Shown here piece after piece: positions 36,784 to 44,431 of a DNA stretch of 64,000 nucleotides (position 1 is the first letter of the stretch; each line of letters starts with the position of its first letter). This stretch comes from Candidatus Sulfotelmatobacter sp. (lineage in GTDB: Bacteria; Vulcanimicrobiota; Vulcanimicrobiia; Vulcanimicrobiales; Vulcanimicrobiaceae), in contig DATJRY010000013.1 of NCBI GenBank assembly GCA_035504415.1, forward strand, positions 1 to 64,000, read 5' to 3'. Below the pieces are notes generated by a model. It saw only the letters and a program-made list of their open reading frames with translations. It was not told where the DNA came from and did no database searches. The translations under genes were made by a program, and so were the position numbers.

Positions 36784-38853
36784 GTGCGGGTCGTTCTCGT
36801 CGACAACGTGCTGCTGGAGCAAACGGGCACCGGGTTCACGGCGACGCTCCAGCCGCACTTGGGCTTGATCTCGCTGATCGCGGTGCTGCGGGAGCTGGGT
36901 CACGACGCGCGCCTGCTCGACCCCAAGCTCGACCTGGTGCGCGGCGAGGTCGCGCTCGGGCCCCACTTCTACGGCGCGGTGGCGGAGCGGATTCTGGCCG
37001 GCGATCCGGACGTCGTGGGCTTCACCTCGCTGGGCTGCAACTTCGCCTGCACGGTGCGCATCGCCGCGCGCGTCCGCGCGGCGCGGCCGGCGCTGCCGAT
37101 CCTGTTGGGCGGCCCGCACGCCAGCATCGTCGACGAGCCGATCCTCGCCGCGTACCCGCAGTTCGACGCGATCGTGCGCAACGAGACCGAGGCCGTCATC
37201 GGCGCGGTCCTCGACGCGCTCGGCGGCAACGGCAGCCTGGCCGACGTCCCCGGGGTGACCTACCGGCGCGAGGGCGCGATCGCGCGCACCGCCGGCGCCG
37301 GCCCGCTGCTCGAGCTCGACGCGCTGCCGTTCCCCGCCTATGACGTCTATCCGATCGCGGAGCTGGCGCTGACGACGCTGCGCGTCGATGCCGGGCGCGG
37401 CTGCCCGTTCGGCTGCACGTTCTGCTCGACGGCCAGCTTCTTCGGCCGGCGCTACCGGCTCAAGTCGCCCGAGCGGCTGGTCGGCGAGCTCGACCGCCTG
37501 GCGCAGACCTACGGCGTGCGGCGCTTCAACCTGACCCACGACCTGTTCACCGTCGACGCGCGGCGCGTACGCGCGTTCTGCGAGGAGGTCGCCGGCCGCG
37601 GCTACGCCTGGACGTGCTCGGCGCGCATGGATTGCGTCGACGACGCGCTGCTCGCGCAGATGCGCGACGCCGGCTGCAGCGCGATCTACTACGGCGTCGA
37701 GACCGGTTCGACGCGCTTGCAGCCGCTGGTCGGCAAGCATCTCGACCTGGCGCTCTACCGGCCGATCGTCGAAACCTCGTTGCGGCTGGGGCTCGACACG
37801 ACGGTCTCGTTCATCACCGGGTATCCGAACGAGCTGGCGTCCGACGCGGACGCGACGCTGGAGCTGCTCGGCGAGAGCATCGAGACCTATCCCGACGCGC
37901 TCTCGGTGCAGCTGCATCTGCTCACGCCCGAACCCGGCACCGCGCTGCACCACGAGTACGCGCACGCGCTGGCATACGACGGTCACGTCAGCGACTTCAA
38001 CTTCCCCGCGCTGGTCGACGGCGACGAAGAGCTGATCGCCGCCGACCCGGCGTCGTTCGTCTGCCACCACTACTTCGCCGCCGGTCTGCCGCGCGAGGAG
38101 CACCTGGCCGCGACCGAAGGGTATCGCATCCTCTACGGCCTGGGGCACGCGCTGGTGCGCGCGATCCGGCGCGCCGCCGACATGCCGTTCGCGGCGCTGG
38201 TGCGCGCGGTGGGCCGCTTCGTGCGCGGCTATCCGGGTCCGGCCGACGCCGCGCTGGTCGCGTTCCTCGAGGCGCGTTTCGGCGCCGGTTCGTCGTTCGC
38301 CGAGATCGTGCGCTACGGGCGCGCGGCCGCGAGCCTGCGGCCGGACGACGCGCCGCGCGCCGCGCACGTCGACGCCGGCACGCCGCTGCGCCTGGCGCGC
38401 ACCATCGCGCCGGTCGCGTTCGGACGCGACGGCGCCGAGCTCACCCGCCGTGTGCGCGCGGGGCTGCCGCTCGACGAGCCGGCCCTGCCGTCGTCATGGT
38501 GGCTGACCTTCGGCGACGGGCGCGCGGCCGGAGCGTCGTTCGCCGTCGATCGCGTCACCTACGAGCTGGCGTGCGTCTTGCGCGAGGGGACGACGCGCGC
38601 ACAGCTCGAGCAGCGCTTCGAGACCGCCGACGTCGAGGCGCGCTTGTGGTCGCTGAGCCTGATGAGCGGCCTGTGTTACGCCGACGACGCGACGGCCGGC
38701 TCGTCGTCCGTCAGCCCCAGCCGGCGCAGCATCGCCGGATCGGCGGCCGCCGGCGCCGCCGGCGGGACGTACAGCGTCGACATGGTCGGAATCGCCGCCT
38801 CGGCGAGCCGCGCCAGCGGCACGCGCTCGATCTCGGGATCGCAGATCTCGTAG
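36784..38853 (+). CDS. B12-binding-type radical SAM enzyme, candidate RiPP tailoring enzyme
   Basis: 689 aa. Residues 1-150 form a Rossmann-like cobalamin-binding-type domain (VDNVLLE, DVVGFTSLGCNF, LLGGPHASI) without the DxHxxG base-off motif. The radical SAM core has GCPFGCTFCS with Cys207, Cys211 and Cys214 for the 4Fe-4S cluster, then YYGVETGSTRLQPLV and SFITGYPNE. After about 590, DRVTYELACVLREGTTRAQL resembles a small winged-helix or PqqD-like domain. GTG 36784 has AGGAAGG seven bases ahead. The last 178 bases overlap the methyltransferase gene on the other strand, and the encoded tail there is low-complexity, suggesting a lost earlier stop. Its position argues for modification of the borosin precursor; chemistry is inferred. 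Confidence 0.8.
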   Translation: MRVVLVDNVLLEQTGTGFTATLQPHLGLISLIAVLRELGHDARLLDPKLDLVRGEVALGPHFYGAVAERILAGDPDVVGFTSLGCNFACTVRIAARVRAARPALPILLGGPHASIVDEPILAAYPQFDAIVRNETEAVIGAVLDALGGNGSLADVPGVTYRREGAIARTAGAGPLLELDALPFPAYDVYPIAELALTTLRVDAGRGCPFGCTFCSTASFFGRRYRLKSPERLVGELDRLAQTYGVRRFNLTHDLFTVDARRVRAFCEEVAGRGYAWTCSARMDCVDDALLAQMRDAGCSAIYYGVETGSTRLQPLVGKHLDLALYRPIVETSLRLGLDTTVSFITGYPNELASDADATLELLGESIETYPDALSVQLHLLTPEPGTALHHEYAHALAYDGHVSDFNFPALVDGDEELIAADPASFVCHHYFAAGLPREEHLAATEGYRILYGLGHALVRAIRRAADMPFAALVRAVGRFVRGYPGPADAALVAFLEARFGAGSSFAEIVRYGRAAASLRPDDAPRAAHVDAGTPLRLARTIAPVAFGRDGAELTRRVRAGLPLDEPALPSSWWLTFGDGRAAGASFAVDRVTYELACVLREGTTRAQLEQRFETADVEARLWSLSLMSGLCYADDATAGSSSVSPSRRSIAGSAAAGAAGGTYSVDMVGIAASASRASGTRSISGSQIS

Positions 38854-39482
38854 ACGGCCGCCTTGTAGACGACCACCTCGTGTCCGGCCGGGTAGTGCGG
38901 TGCGAGCACCTCGGCCAGCACCGCCAACCCGTCGCGGTTCCACGGACCACCGCCCTCGCGCATGCCGCGCTCGGCGATCACGCCGATCTGCCAGATGATC
39001 AGCGCGCTGCGTGGATCGAAGACACGCCGGTGCACGAGGAAGTCCGTCGCCTCGAAGCTCTGGCAGCCGCCGTCGCCCGGATCGACGCCCAGGTCGGCGA
39101 ACAGACAATCCTCCGCCGACACCGCCGCGAACATCGTGGCGGGATAGCCTTCGGCGCGCGCGCGGCGGATCGACTCGTGGGTCGGGAACGCGAACACGCC
39201 GGGATGGCCGTAGACCGCCAAACACACGTCGAGGCCGTCGCGCACGGCGCCCAGCACGTGCTCGACGATCTCTTCGTAGGTGCGCCGGCGCGGCTTACCG
39301 ACCTCGTAGTGCGCGTGCAGGGGCTCCGCGCTCGGATTGAGCCCGCGCAGCCAGTGCAGCGTGAGCGAGTCGGCCGACAGAAAGAAGACCTTCTGCGCCC
39401 GCTCGATCGCGACCAGCGTCTCCGCCGTGACCTGGGCGCCGACCCGGATGCCGGTGCCGACGACGCACAACGATCCCGCCAC
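38676..39482 (-). CDS. OphMA/SonM-like peptide alpha-N-methyltransferase (split borosin type)
   Basis: 268 aa of the tetrapyrrole-methylase fold. Landmarks match the borosin enzymes, not cobalamin or siroheme methylases: VVGTGIRVG at 5-13, the R65/Y69 pair in RRRTYEE at the place of OphMA Arg72/Tyr76, YGHPGVF at 91-97, VSAEDCLFADLGVDP then GGCQSFEATDFL (about 121-149), EVVVYKAAVYEICDPE and TLYVPP near the C-terminus. It would use SAM to methylate backbone amides of a peptide. GTG 39482 lies 11 bases after the precursor stop; an ATG inside the precursor gene (39533) is a less likely start. Precursor and enzyme are separate genes, as in Shewanella SonA/SonM. Confidence 0.87.
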   Translation of the reverse strand: MAGSLCVVGTGIRVGAQVTAETLVAIERAQKVFFLSADSLTLHWLRGLNPSAEPLHAHYEVGKPRRRTYEEIVEHVLGAVRDGLDVCLAVYGHPGVFAFPTHESIRRARAEGYPATMFAAVSAEDCLFADLGVDPGDGGCQSFEATDFLVHRRVFDPRSALIIWQIGVIAERGMREGGGPWNRDGLAVLAEVLAPHYPAGHEVVVYKAAVYEICDPEIERVPLARLAEAAIPTMSTLYVPPAAPAAADPAMLRRLGLTDDEPAVASSA

Positions 39483-39493
39483 GGTGCGCCCGC

Positions 39494-39742
39494 CTAGCGC
39501 AAGTCGATCATGAAGACCATCAGCACCGGCCATGACCCGCCGCCCGGGTTGGGTGGGAACTCCGCCTGGATCGCCTTGCTGATGCGATCGGAGTCCTTGC
39601 TCAGGATCGCGTCCTGCTGCGCCGCCGAGAGCCCCGCGGCGCTCATCGCCGCGCGCGCGTCGGCGTCGGATTTCCGATGGGTGGCGGCGGCGGCGGGATC
39701 ACGCGCAAGCGCGAGCAGATAGTCGGCGATGGATGCGGCCAT
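39494..39742 (-). CDS. Split borosin precursor peptide
   Basis: 82 aa. A helical, acidic leader matches the borosin-binding-domain pattern: IADYLLALARDP, then ARAAMSAAGLSAAQQDAILS and KDSDRISKAI. A linker FPPNPGGG follows, then a hydrophobic end SWPVLMVFMIDLR (70-82), the presumed core, rich in Val, Leu, Ile, Met and Phe like known alpha-N-methylated cores. The ATG has a strong GGGGAGGA SD, consistent with high precursor output. The methyltransferase gene follows at 11 bases and the ATPase regulator precedes it by 34 bases. Length, gene order and core type fit SonA-like precursors. The cleavage and methylation sites are inferred. Confidence 0.82.
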   Translation of the reverse strand: MAASIADYLLALARDPAAAATHRKSDADARAAMSAAGLSAAQQDAILSKDSDRISKAIQAEFPPNPGGGSWPVLMVFMIDLR

Positions 39743-39776: not shown

Positions 39777-42233
39777 CTATCGCCCGTCCGCCTCCTCGGC
39801 CGCTTGTTCCTCGTCGAACAGCGCACCGATGCTGGCGAGTCGGTCGAAATCGGTTCCGCCGAGCCGCTCGATGAGCTCCGCCCGGGTGCGATCGCGCAGC
39901 CGCGGAATCAGGAACACCGAGCGGAACGGCAGCGCGCCGGCGCGCGCTTGCGCGAAGCCGAGCAGTCGCGCCGCGCGCAGGTCGTCGCCCGCCCGGACGT
40001 GGACCGCCGCCGCGACGATGATCGCTTCCAAGAACGCGATCGGGTTCTGCGCCTCGAGCAGGTCGGCGATCGCGCGCGTGACGTGCACGCGCGCCTCGGC
40101 GATACGCCCTTCGGCGAGCAGCGCGTGCGCGAGCCGGTAGTGCGCGGTCGCGATGCGGCGCGCGTCGCGCAGCCGTTCGGTCAGCGCCAGCGAGCGTTGC
40201 GAGAGGTCGACGGCGCGCGGGGCGTCGTCGACCCACAGCGCGGCCTCGGCGAAGCCGCGCAGCACCAGTGCCGCGTCGCGGTCGCGCTTGGTGCGCGCCG
40301 TGACTTCGTCGGCTTCGGCGAACCGTTCGAGCGCCTGCGAGAGCTCGCCGGTGTAGAGGTGCACGAAGCCGAGCAGCGCCAGCATGCGGCCCGCCGCGAT
40401 CGCGTCGAAGGCCGCGCGCGCCAGCGCGATCCCTTCGTGCAGCGCTTCACGCGCATCGCCGTAGCGGCCCAGGTTGATCAGCGCCTGCGCGCGATACGCG
40501 AGCGTCTCGTAGGTGCCGGTCGCGTCCGCGACGTCGCGGAAGCCGGCCAGCGCGCGCTCCGCCAGCGAGAGCGTCTCGTCGGAGAACAGGTGCACGCGCA
40601 CCGACTCGAGCAGCACGCGCGAGGCGAGCTGCGGCGAGAGGCCGTCGGAGGCCGCACGCGCCAGCCCGAGCCAGTACGCGCCTTCCTGGAAACGCCGCGC
40701 GTCCCAGAACGGCCCGAGCAGCGCCGCGATCTGCGCGCCGGACGCGACGTCGGCGCGCTCGCCGAGCGTCCAGGTCAGCGCCGCGCGGACGTGCTCGATC
40801 TCGCGCTCGACTTGCGCCAGCCAGACGTCCTCGGGCAACTGCCGGCTGGTCGTGCGCGCGCGGTGCGCGAACGCCAGCTCCATCGCGACGTGGCGCGCGC
40901 CGACCTCGGCGCGCTCGCCCAGCTCGTCCAGCCGCGAGAGCGCGTACGTGCGGGCCGACTCGAGCAGATGGAAACGGCCTTCGCCGTCGTCGTCGGCCTC
41001 GGCCACGACCAGCGACTTCTCGACCAGCGAGACCAGCAGCTCGGGGACGTCCTTGGCATCGATCGCGCCGCCGCCGCACACCGGGATCGCCGCTTCGAGC
41101 GTCCACGAACCGGCCAGCACGCCGAGACGGCAGAACACCGTCGCCTCGTCGTGAGTGAGTAGCTCGAAGCTCCAATCCATCAGCGCACGCAGCGTCCTTT
41201 GCCGGGGAACGTTCCGTCGGCCGGCGGTGAGCAGTCGCAGTCGTTCGTCCAATCGCGCGGCCACCTGCGCCACGCCCAGAGCGGGAATCGTCGCCGCCGC
41301 CAGCTCGAGCGCCAGCGGGATGCCGTCGAGACGACTGCAGATCGTCGCCACGGCGGCGCCGTTGCGTTCGGTCAACTGGAAGCGTGGGTCGTGTGCGGCG
41401 GCGCGCTCGATGAACAGCTCGACCGCGCCGAAGCGCAGGGCGTCGTCCGGCCCGACGGGGGCGCCTTCGTCGGGAACGGTGAGCGGCGGCAGGCGGTAGA
41501 CGACTTCACCGTCGACGTGCAGCGGCTCGCGGCTGGTCGCCAGCACGTCGACGTACGGACAGCGCGCCGCGATCTCGGCGGTGACGCGCGCGGCCTCCTC
41601 GACGACGTGCTCGCAGTTGTCGAGCACCAGCAGCAGCGAGCGAGCGCGCAAGCCCGCGACGATGATGTCGAGCAGCGGCCGATCGGCCTGCTCCGGGATC
41701 TCGAGCGCGGCGGCGACCTCCTGCGCGACCAGCCGCGCGTCGCTGACGTTGGCCAGCTCGACCACCCACACGCCGTCGCCGTACCGTTCGAGCAGCTCGA
41801 AGCCGAGCTCGAGCGCGACGCGCGTCTTGCCGACGCCGCCGATCCCGGCGACGGTCACGACGCGACCGTCCGCGATCAGCCGGCGCAGCTCGCGCCGTTC
41901 CCCCTCGCGACCGACGAAGCGCGTGAGCGGACGGTTCAGGTTGTGGCGCCGGGCCGGCGCGGCCGGCATCGTCGTCGCGGTGACCAGCGTGAGCGGCGTC
42001 GGCCGCGTCGCCGCCGCTTCCAGACGCGCACGGTTCTCGACGTCGAGCTCGAGCGCTTCGATCAGGAGTGCGAGGGTTTGACGCTGCGGAACCTTGCGGC
42101 TCCCGCGTTCGAGCGTGCTGATCGCGTCCACGCTGAGCGTCGCGCGCTCCGCGAGGGCTTCCTGCGACAGCCCCCGCGCCAGCCGGAGCTGACGCAGGAG
42201 CCTGCCGAACGGCGCCCGCCCGGGTTCGTCCAC
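39777..42233 (-). CDS. XRE-family HTH / STAND-type ATPase / TPR regulator
   Basis: About 818 aa. N-terminal XRE helix-turn-helix (FGRLLRQLRLARGLSQEALA at 9-28, then VDAISTLERGSRKVP), NB-ARC-like ATPase with FVGREGERREL, P-loop GIGGVGKT (130-137), VLDNCEHV Walker B and GIPLALELAAA, then a long alpha-helical TPR region to the end. Such proteins act as ligand- or partner-triggered activators, many near antibiotic clusters. The start is probably GTG 42233 or 42236 behind GGGGGA; GTG 42320 is in phase. The borosin precursor begins 34 bases after the stop on the same strand, so it may regulate or be co-transcribed with it. Confidence 0.82.
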   Translation of the reverse strand: MDEPGRAPFGRLLRQLRLARGLSQEALAERATLSVDAISTLERGSRKVPQRQTLALLIEALELDVENRARLEAAATRPTPLTLVTATTMPAAPARRHNLNRPLTRFVGREGERRELRRLIADGRVVTVAGIGGVGKTRVALELGFELLERYGDGVWVVELANVSDARLVAQEVAAALEIPEQADRPLLDIIVAGLRARSLLLVLDNCEHVVEEAARVTAEIAARCPYVDVLATSREPLHVDGEVVYRLPPLTVPDEGAPVGPDDALRFGAVELFIERAAAHDPRFQLTERNGAAVATICSRLDGIPLALELAAATIPALGVAQVAARLDERLRLLTAGRRNVPRQRTLRALMDWSFELLTHDEATVFCRLGVLAGSWTLEAAIPVCGGGAIDAKDVPELLVSLVEKSLVVAEADDDGEGRFHLLESARTYALSRLDELGERAEVGARHVAMELAFAHRARTTSRQLPEDVWLAQVEREIEHVRAALTWTLGERADVASGAQIAALLGPFWDARRFQEGAYWLGLARAASDGLSPQLASRVLLESVRVHLFSDETLSLAERALAGFRDVADATGTYETLAYRAQALINLGRYGDAREALHEGIALARAAFDAIAAGRMLALLGFVHLYTGELSQALERFAEADEVTARTKRDRDAALVLRGFAEAALWVDDAPRAVDLSQRSLALTERLRDARRIATAHYRLAHALLAEGRIAEARVHVTRAIADLLEAQNPIAFLEAIIVAAAVHVRAGDDLRAARLLGFAQARAGALPFRSVFLIPRLRDRTRAELIERLGGTDFDRLASIGALFDEEQAAEEADGR

Positions 42234-42368
42234 CACCCATCCCCCGATTGAGTCCGCCACACCCAGTGCGGACCCGAAGCGACGGGACGTGTACTCATAC
42301 GAAGGTAGGCTTTCCCCCACCGTTGCCTGCCCCGTACGCCTTTCGGGGGCGACCCGGACCGCGTTGAC

Positions 42369-42567: not shown

Positions 42568-43170
42568 ATGACCCGGACGGTCGACCTCGCCAACCGGTCC
42601 AAGCTGCTCGAGCGGGTCGCGGCCTATGTCCTCGACCACGGGCTGGCCGATCTCTCGCTGCGCCCGCTGGCCGAGGCCGTCGAGAGCAGCCCGCGCACGC
42701 TGCTCTACCACTTCGGGTCGAAGGAGCGGATCGTCGCGGCGGTGCTGCGCGGGATCCGAGAACGGCAACAGGCGCTGTTCGCGCGGCTGGGCGGCGAGCA
42801 GACCACGCCGGTGGCGATCTGCCGCGCGGCCTGGGCCTACATGAGCGACCCGGCGGTCGGGCCGGCCCTGCGGCTGTTCTTCGAAACCTACGCGCTGGCG
42901 CTGCGCGCGCCCGAGCGCTTTCCCGGCTTTCTCGAGGGCGCCGTCGAGGACTGGCTGCGGTTCCTCGCCGCGCCGCTGTTGGCCCAGGGCATGGAGCCGG
43001 CGCGGGCGCGCGCCTTCGCCACCGTCGTGCTCGGCGGTTACCGCGGCTTCATGCTCGACTACGCCGCGACCGGCGACGCCGAGCGCGTCGGCGCCGCCAT
43101 CGATCTGTGGAGCGCCGCGCTCCACGCGCTCGAACCCGCACAGGAGAACGACGATGCTCACGCGCCGTAG
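42568..43170 (+). CDS. TetR-family regulator of the adjacent MFS pump
   Basis: 200 aa. TetR helix-turn-helix at about 15-60 (DLSLRPLAEAVESSPRTLLY, HFGSKERIVAAVLRG), followed by a C-terminal dimer/ligand domain with aromatic residues. ATG 42568 has GGAG six bases ahead, placing the start just after the 30-bp palindrome. Its end overlaps the MFS start by 17 bases, so the two form an operon; self-repression relieved by a pump substrate is the usual scheme. Confidence 0.88.
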   Translation: MTRTVDLANRSKLLERVAAYVLDHGLADLSLRPLAEAVESSPRTLLYHFGSKERIVAAVLRGIRERQQALFARLGGEQTTPVAICRAAWAYMSDPAVGPALRLFFETYALALRAPERFPGFLEGAVEDWLRFLAAPLLAQGMEPARARAFATVVLGGYRGFMLDYAATGDAERVGAAIDLWSAALHALEPAQENDDAHAP

Positions 43171-44431
43171 CGCCGCCCTCACGTTCATCTTCGTCACCGT
43201 CCTGCTGGACATGATCGCGCTGGGGATCATCATCCCGGTCTTCCAGCCGCTCTTGTTGAGCTTCACCCACGGCGACTACACGAGCGCGTCGATCGCCAGC
43301 GGCGCCTTCTCGGTGCTGTTCGCGCTGGTGCAGTTCTTCGCATCGCCGATCTTGGGGACGCTCTCGGATCGCGTCGGCCGCCGCCCGGTGGTGCTGCTCT
43401 CGAATCTCGGCACCAGCCTGGACTACGTGATCCTCGCGGTCGCGCCGAACCTGGGCTGGCTGCTGGTCAGCCGCGTGCTGGCGGGCGGGACGACGGCCAG
43501 CATCGCCGTCGCAAGCGCCTACATCGCCGACGTCACGCCCGAGGACAAACGCGCCGGCGCATACGGCATGCTCTCGGCGGCGTTCGGTGCCGGCTTCGTG
43601 ATCGGTCCCGCCATCGGCGGCCTGCTCGGCGCGCACGGTCTGCGGCTGCCCTTCTGGGTCGCCGCCGTGCTGAGCCTGATCAACTTCGTCTACGGCCTGC
43701 TGGTACTGCCCGAGTCGCTCGCCCCCGAACATCGCAGCGCGTTCTCGTGGGCGCGCGCCAACCCGCTCGGCTCGCTCAAGCTGCTGCGCCGCCACGCCGA
43801 GCTGGCCGGCCTCTCGCTGGCGAACCTGTTCGGCTTCGTCGCGCACGAAGCGCTGCCGCAGCTGTTCGTGCTCTACGCGCTCTATTCGTACGGCTGGACG
43901 CAGAGCACCATCGGGCTCTCGCTGGCGGTGGTCGGCGTGTTGACGATCGTGATCTCGGCGCTGGTCGTGCAGCGCGTGGTCAACCGGTTCGGCGAGCGCC
44001 GCGCGGTCGTGATCGGGCTGTTCCTCGGGGCGCTCGGCTACGCGCTCTTCGCCGGCAACCAGATCGTGTTCTGGGCCGGCATCGTGATCAGCATGTTCTG
44101 GACGGTCGGCACGTCGGCGTCGCAAGCGCTGATGACGCGCCGGGTGGAAAAGCACGAGCAGGGCGAGCTGCAAGGTGCGATCAACCTGCTGCGCAGCGCC
44201 GGGACGCTGGTCGGACCGCTGCTGTTCGCCGGCATCTTCTCGTACTCGGTCAGCGGCGCGCACGGGTGGAAAGCACCCGGCGCCGCCTGGTTCGCCGGCA
44301 GCGCCCTGCTGCTGATCTCGCTCGTCATCGCCTGGCGGGTGACGACCGCCGACGACGACGTGCGCGCGATCGTCGACACCGCCGCGGCGCTCGAGTCCTC
44401 ACTCCCCGCCGAGACGCCGCTGGTGGACTAG
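43154..44431 (+). CDS. MFS transporter, TetA-like (DHA1) 12-TM efflux pump
   Basis: 425 aa with about 12 hydrophobic helices. FVTVLLDMIALGIIIPVFQP in TM1 is the TetA/DHA1 motif, motif A reads GTLSDRVGRRPVVLLSN, and AAFGAGFVIGPAIGGLLG is motif C of H+ antiporters. An AGGAG SD precedes the ATG, which lies inside the end of tetR. It probably exports a drug-like compound. Converges on sigB with a few bases between stops. Confidence 0.9.
   Translation: MLTRRSAALTFIFVTVLLDMIALGIIIPVFQPLLLSFTHGDYTSASIASGAFSVLFALVQFFASPILGTLSDRVGRRPVVLLSNLGTSLDYVILAVAPNLGWLLVSRVLAGGTTASIAVASAYIADVTPEDKRAGAYGMLSAAFGAGFVIGPAIGGLLGAHGLRLPFWVAAVLSLINFVYGLLVLPESLAPEHRSAFSWARANPLGSLKLLRRHAELAGLSLANLFGFVAHEALPQLFVLYALYSYGWTQSTIGLSLAVVGVLTIVISALVVQRVVNRFGERRAVVIGLFLGALGYALFAGNQIVFWAGIVISMFWTVGTSASQALMTRRVEKHEQGELQGAINLLRSAGTLVGPLLFAGIFSYSVSGAHGWKAPGAAWFAGSALLLISLVIAWRVTTADDDVRAIVDTAAALESSLPAETPLVD

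Follow-up and report, generated by a model that had tools for sequence, protein, structure and literature searches.

The window, i.e., the whole stretch of 64,000 nucleotides analyzed here, harbors the following genes and features of a predicted RiPP locus:

36784..38853, plus strand: gene of a B12-binding radical SAM enzyme, ApyD-like, 689 aa, GTG start, convergent with the methyltransferase gene (PF02310 and PF04055, CPFGCTFC motif)
38341..38688, plus strand: RRE-like C-terminal domain of the radical SAM enzyme (AlphaFold2 pLDDT 85)
38676..38853, no strand: overlap of the 3′-ends of the convergent radical SAM and methyltransferase genes, 178 bp according to the stop positions
38676..39482, minus strand: gene of an alpha-N-methyltransferase (MT) with SonM-type tetrapyrrole-methylase fold, 268 aa, GTG at 39482 (phmmer, PF00590)
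39494..39742, minus strand: precursor gene, 82 aa by translation, ATG at 39742, stop at 39494-39496
39560..39730, minus strand: borosin binding domain (BBD), precursor residues 5-61, predicted five-helix bundle (AlphaFold2 pLDDT 78)
39497..39559, minus strand: putative core, precursor residues 62-82, FPPNPGGGSWPVLMVFMIDLR, C-terminal to the BBD and disordered in the model
39777..42236, minus strand: gene of an HTH-STAND-TPR protein, 819 aa (Pfam HTH_31, AAA_22/NB-ARC, TPR), 34 bases upstream of the precursor gene on the same strand

In an earlier note on this DNA, the precursor and MT genes had been read as a split borosin pair. The coordinates given there for the pair and the gap of 11 bases, with the MT gene lying downstream on the minus strand, hold. 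Compared with the PDB by phmmer, the MT matched SonM over residues 3-259 (E 6.6e-60) and OphMA (E about 1e-50). The landmarks already pointed out in the protein (YGHPGVF, SAEDCLFADLGVDP, GCQSFEATDFL and YVPP) were all recovered, and the Arg/Tyr pair proposed for the catalytic site corresponds to R65 and Y69, aligned with R67 and Y71 of SonM; the SonM counterparts of Y59 and Y91 are Y58 and Y93. In 16 MT homologues from the same phylum, Y59, R65 and Y69 occur without exception. In SonM, Y58, R67 and Y71 are catalytic: kcat/KM of mutants is reduced by a factor of 14 to 98, and the R67A variant is inactive (PMC8429565). Judged by its sequence, the MT very probably methylates the peptide backbone. 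Of 148 related genomes, 23 contain such an MT; their phylum is presumably Vulcanimicrobiota (Eremiobacterota).

Besides this assignment, we considered that the protein is a tetrapyrrole methylase of the CobA/CysG type lying next to an unrelated small ORF, as it shares Pfam TP_methylase. However, its best curated score on the tetrapyrrole side was that of YabN with 50.8 bits, compared with a cut-off of 525 bits, while the matches to SonM and OphMA were far stronger and cobalamin or siroheme methylases were missing from its PDB matches obtained with phmmer. Moreover, a BBD precursor adjoins the MT. A CobA/CysG-type assignment fails with scores far under the cut-offs, and we regard its probability as virtually negligible.

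For the precursor, AlphaFold2 predicted five helices (residues 5-14, 16-24, 26-35, 40-47 and 51-61), in line with the helical leader ascribed to the 82-aa gene before, and a disordered tail. The putative core reached pLDDT values of 46-63. The peptide possesses no Cys and ends with Arg. Searched alone against the PDB with phmmer, it yielded nothing useful; SonA was reached only by a profile built from 12 small ORFs located directly upstream of MTs of the phylum (E 2e-7, one continuous stretch). TAL-effector repeats occupied the top rows of this profile search and were discarded, since their scores added up from many weak repeats, none of which passed the threshold as a single stretch. The best Foldseek match of the precursor model was the SonA BBD (7ltr_I; rmsd 1.4 Å, TM 0.82 by target, E 3.7), and the remaining two matches were LigA and dbOphMA. 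The weak E-values are due to the small size of the domain. As E-values were weak for both small models (3.7 with the BBD and no better than 0.03 with the RRE-like domain), our statements on folds are based on rmsd, TM-score, Z and the families recovered.

A small ORF exhibiting a conserved helical pattern at its start and a variable core at its end lies directly upstream of most MTs of the phylum, and nearly all matches of the BBD profile in the 148 genomes adjoin an MT. Because of these associations and the strong matches to SonM and OphMA, the pairing in the window is not a matter of chance. The earlier reading finds support in the sequence, the conservation of catalytic residues, the match of the BBD profile and the fold prediction, all of which agree; precursor and MT almost certainly constitute a split borosin. 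The pair is a further case of this already known class. Like the type IV split borosin SonM/SonA of Shewanella oneidensis (PMC8429565), it comprises a separately encoded precursor (about 80 aa, five-helix BBD), conserved equivalents of Y58, R67 and Y71 in the MT, and adjacent genes. Unlike SonM/SonA, it is accompanied by a STAND gene before the precursor and a linked B12 radical SAM enzyme and has another core sequence, and the activity of the window pair is predicted from sequence and models. The fused borosins OphMA and dbOphMA contain a homologous MT domain, but there the precursor is fused to the enzyme.

The radical SAM enzyme gave its best curated match with ApyD (NF050148, 573 bits). 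Since the equivalog cut-off of 750 bits was missed, we call the enzyme ApyD-like and not ApyD. Both proteins have B12-binding and radical SAM domains and an RRE-like domain at the C-terminus. When folded alone, this domain of the window enzyme matched the RREs of TigE (Z 9.2), MccB (8.9), TbiB1 (8.0) and ThcOx (7.7). On account of these fold matches, the modeled domain suggests that the radical SAM enzyme probably binds a RiPP precursor. ApyD makes beta-methyl-Tyr in aminopyruvatide biosynthesis, and an MNIO is present in 100% of apy clusters (PMC10635010). The precursor of that pathway, ApyA, is characterized by a CBX2-3G motif and a C-terminal Asp; a profile search of the window genome (G000) disclosed no ApyA-like precursor, nor did a search with NF050151 disclose a homologue of the MNIO ApyH. 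In contrast to ApyD, the window enzyme is paired with a BBD precursor and occurs without MNIO. As an MNIO was reported for every homologous apy cluster (PMC10635010), an ApyD-like enzyme without it is unusual by itself. Since the window genome lacks both an ApyH homologue and an ApyA-like precursor, the strongest substrate candidate for the radical SAM enzyme is the BBD precursor.

Enzymes of this ApyD-like type are present in four genomes of the phylum. Those of the window, of a genome of the same genus (G005) and of a genome of another genus (G017) form one clade with a support of 100/100, and all three are encoded at BBD loci. Among these three genomes, which share the arrangement, that of the window is the only one in which every part is intact. 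In G005, intact radical SAM and STAND genes flank an in-frame deletion affecting precursor and MT. The resulting open frame of 153 aa (L055:10007-10500) joins precursor residues ~1-18 to MT residue ~139, so that the precursor core and the catalytic half of the MT were removed; the overlap of the convergent genes is kept. In G017, the locus extends over two contigs (C128 and C119) sharing an exact 24-bp end, and the frame and homology of the radical SAM gene are continuous across this join. Here, the STAND gene is followed after 18 bp by an intact BBD precursor gene and a convergent, intact radical SAM gene, which shares 81 bp with the precursor gene. This precursor consists of 86 aa, and its leader is 50% identical to that of the window. 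No MT lies between the two genes; a broken remnant of another borosin MT resides on a different G017 contig (L185:3620-3965).

The deletion in G005 and the lack of an MT at the G017 locus, along with the broken MT remnant elsewhere, could mean that this lineage is losing the cluster through decay and that even the window copy may have stopped making a product. Against this, the window genes are all open and their catalytic residues intact, and a comparison of the three genomes gave dN/dS values of about 0.4-0.46 for the radical SAM gene, which is a rough indication of constraint. We therefore consider such a decay of the window copy very unlikely.

Based on homology, conserved catalytic residues, predicted folds and the gene order in three genomes, we propose that the split borosin pathway is joined to the B12 radical SAM enzyme and that both enzymes probably modify one precursor. 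The five-helix leader would dock on the SonM-type MT, which would methylate backbone amides within the hydrophobic C-terminal core. The RRE-like C-terminal domain may recruit the ApyD-like radical SAM enzyme to the same precursor, where it would introduce a second change into the core, most likely a C-methylation at an unactivated (beta) carbon, similar to the action of ApyD on Tyr. The most likely outcome would be a peptide bearing N-methyls on its backbone and, from the radical reaction, a C-methyl or a similar modification.

Several observations speak against a joint pathway. The radical SAM gene lies on the strand opposite to precursor and MT, and in G005 it remained intact though precursor and MT were destroyed. 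In known systems, the RRE fold binds an extended leader strand, whereas the leader in the window is a helical bundle. In addition, the arrangement was found in three genomes only, and the ApyD equivalog cut-off was missed. Together with the fact that most split borosin loci of the phylum do not possess such a radical SAM enzyme, the opposite strand and the G005 locus would also fit a plain type IV-like split borosin whose radical SAM neighbor acts on another substrate. What makes us regard this explanation as rather unlikely is the RRE-like domain of the enzyme, the adjacency of BBD precursor and radical SAM gene in G017 with no MT between them, the occurrence of every member of the radical SAM clade at such loci, and the window genome, in which neither an ApyH homologue nor an ApyA-like precursor was found. 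The note had included the radical SAM enzyme in the system. Its linkage is affirmed by the RRE-like domain and by the neighborhood kept in two related genomes, but the gene is convergent and belongs to a separate operon.

Within the joint pathway that we prefer, the BBD leader could be a docking module shared by the N-methyltransferase and the B12 radical SAM enzyme rather than one restricted to borosins, and that of G017 may serve the radical SAM enzyme alone; we put this forward tentatively. If the latter were true, G017 would encode a BBD-led RiPP without backbone N-methylation.

A pairing of a borosin MT with a radical SAM enzyme was not found in the open literature searched; a mention in specialist borosin mining papers is possible. 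In a borosin structure paper, radical SAM mentions were confined to the reference list, and one review covers borosins and radical SAM enzymes separately. With respect to this literature, the radical SAM enzyme linked to a split borosin pair and the MT-less locus of G017 are new. Pythonamide, reported from Eremiobacterota (PMC9259500), also combines N-methylation of the backbone with C-methylation of the same RiPP core, but this compound has a proteusin leader, and its FkbM-type backbone N-methyltransferase EreM belongs to a family unrelated to the window MT. Should the joint pathway be true, two unrelated enzymes would furnish a single peptide with N-methyls on the backbone and a radical C-methyl, and nature would thereby offer a compact model of how two drug-like modifications can be combined. 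It would also illustrate the passage of a modifying enzyme from one RiPP class to another. Other RiPP classes reportedly lack the BBD leader as far as observed (PMC8429565); its use would be extended to a second enzyme class.

A scan of genome contigs with the radical SAM alignment revealed neither a BBD precursor nor a borosin MT near the best 80 radical SAM loci, one of which (L058) is the G017 contig itself, placed by the genome search in the same family as the window. The loci of Streptomyces and Nitrospira among these 80 that contained ApyH and ApyI homologues are apy-like. An apy-like cluster was also detected in G007 (L053:4865-10937), the fourth genome of the phylum with this type of radical SAM enzyme. 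It encodes homologues of ApyH, ApyI and ApyD and an ApyA-like precursor of 61 aa ending with QRID, and a SPASM-type radical SAM gene is located nearby. Three verrucomicrobial ApyD-like radical SAM genes (L060, L061 and L062) had no ApyH/ApyI match in the DNA searched. MT homologues were moreover present in 13 plasmid records, of which five neighborhoods were examined, three with and two without annotation; the three annotated ones list no radical SAM gene.

The note had also assigned a dedicated regulator to the system. Large STAND/TPR genes are indeed strongly enriched beside MTs: a tblastn search of 315 kb around 18 MT loci yielded eight large regulators, every one of them within 700 bp of an MT, and two more divergent ones (L032 and L041) were added by Pfam. 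The G005 locus contains a syntenic homologue (56%) of the window protein. The association of STAND-TPR genes with MTs is thereby supported, and the window protein may have a regulatory role. That it is dedicated to this system is borne out only in part, as STAND/TPR regulators form a large paralogous family in the phylum and their type varies by locus (HTH-STAND in the window, LuxR-type elsewhere, cyclase-STAND at L025 in G078). Beside the cluster, the window encodes a TetR-type regulator and an MFS transporter (42568-44431). Since these genes are missing from the matching place in G005, they probably lie outside the cluster.

Some MT loci of other genomes showed further gene arrangements. At six of them (L027, L028, L029, L030, L031 and L034), the MT is adjoined by a conserved protein of ~580 aa with a hydrophobic N-terminal segment; two of these proteins were tested and gave no Pfam match. 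In the family f13 (L043 and L044), the MT homologues reside in frames of 540-640 aa with extra sequence C-terminal to the MT domain. In G054 (L037:10560-11582), the MT apparently has a BBD joined in frame to its N-terminus, giving a protein of 340 aa, while the precursors of its relatives are separate.
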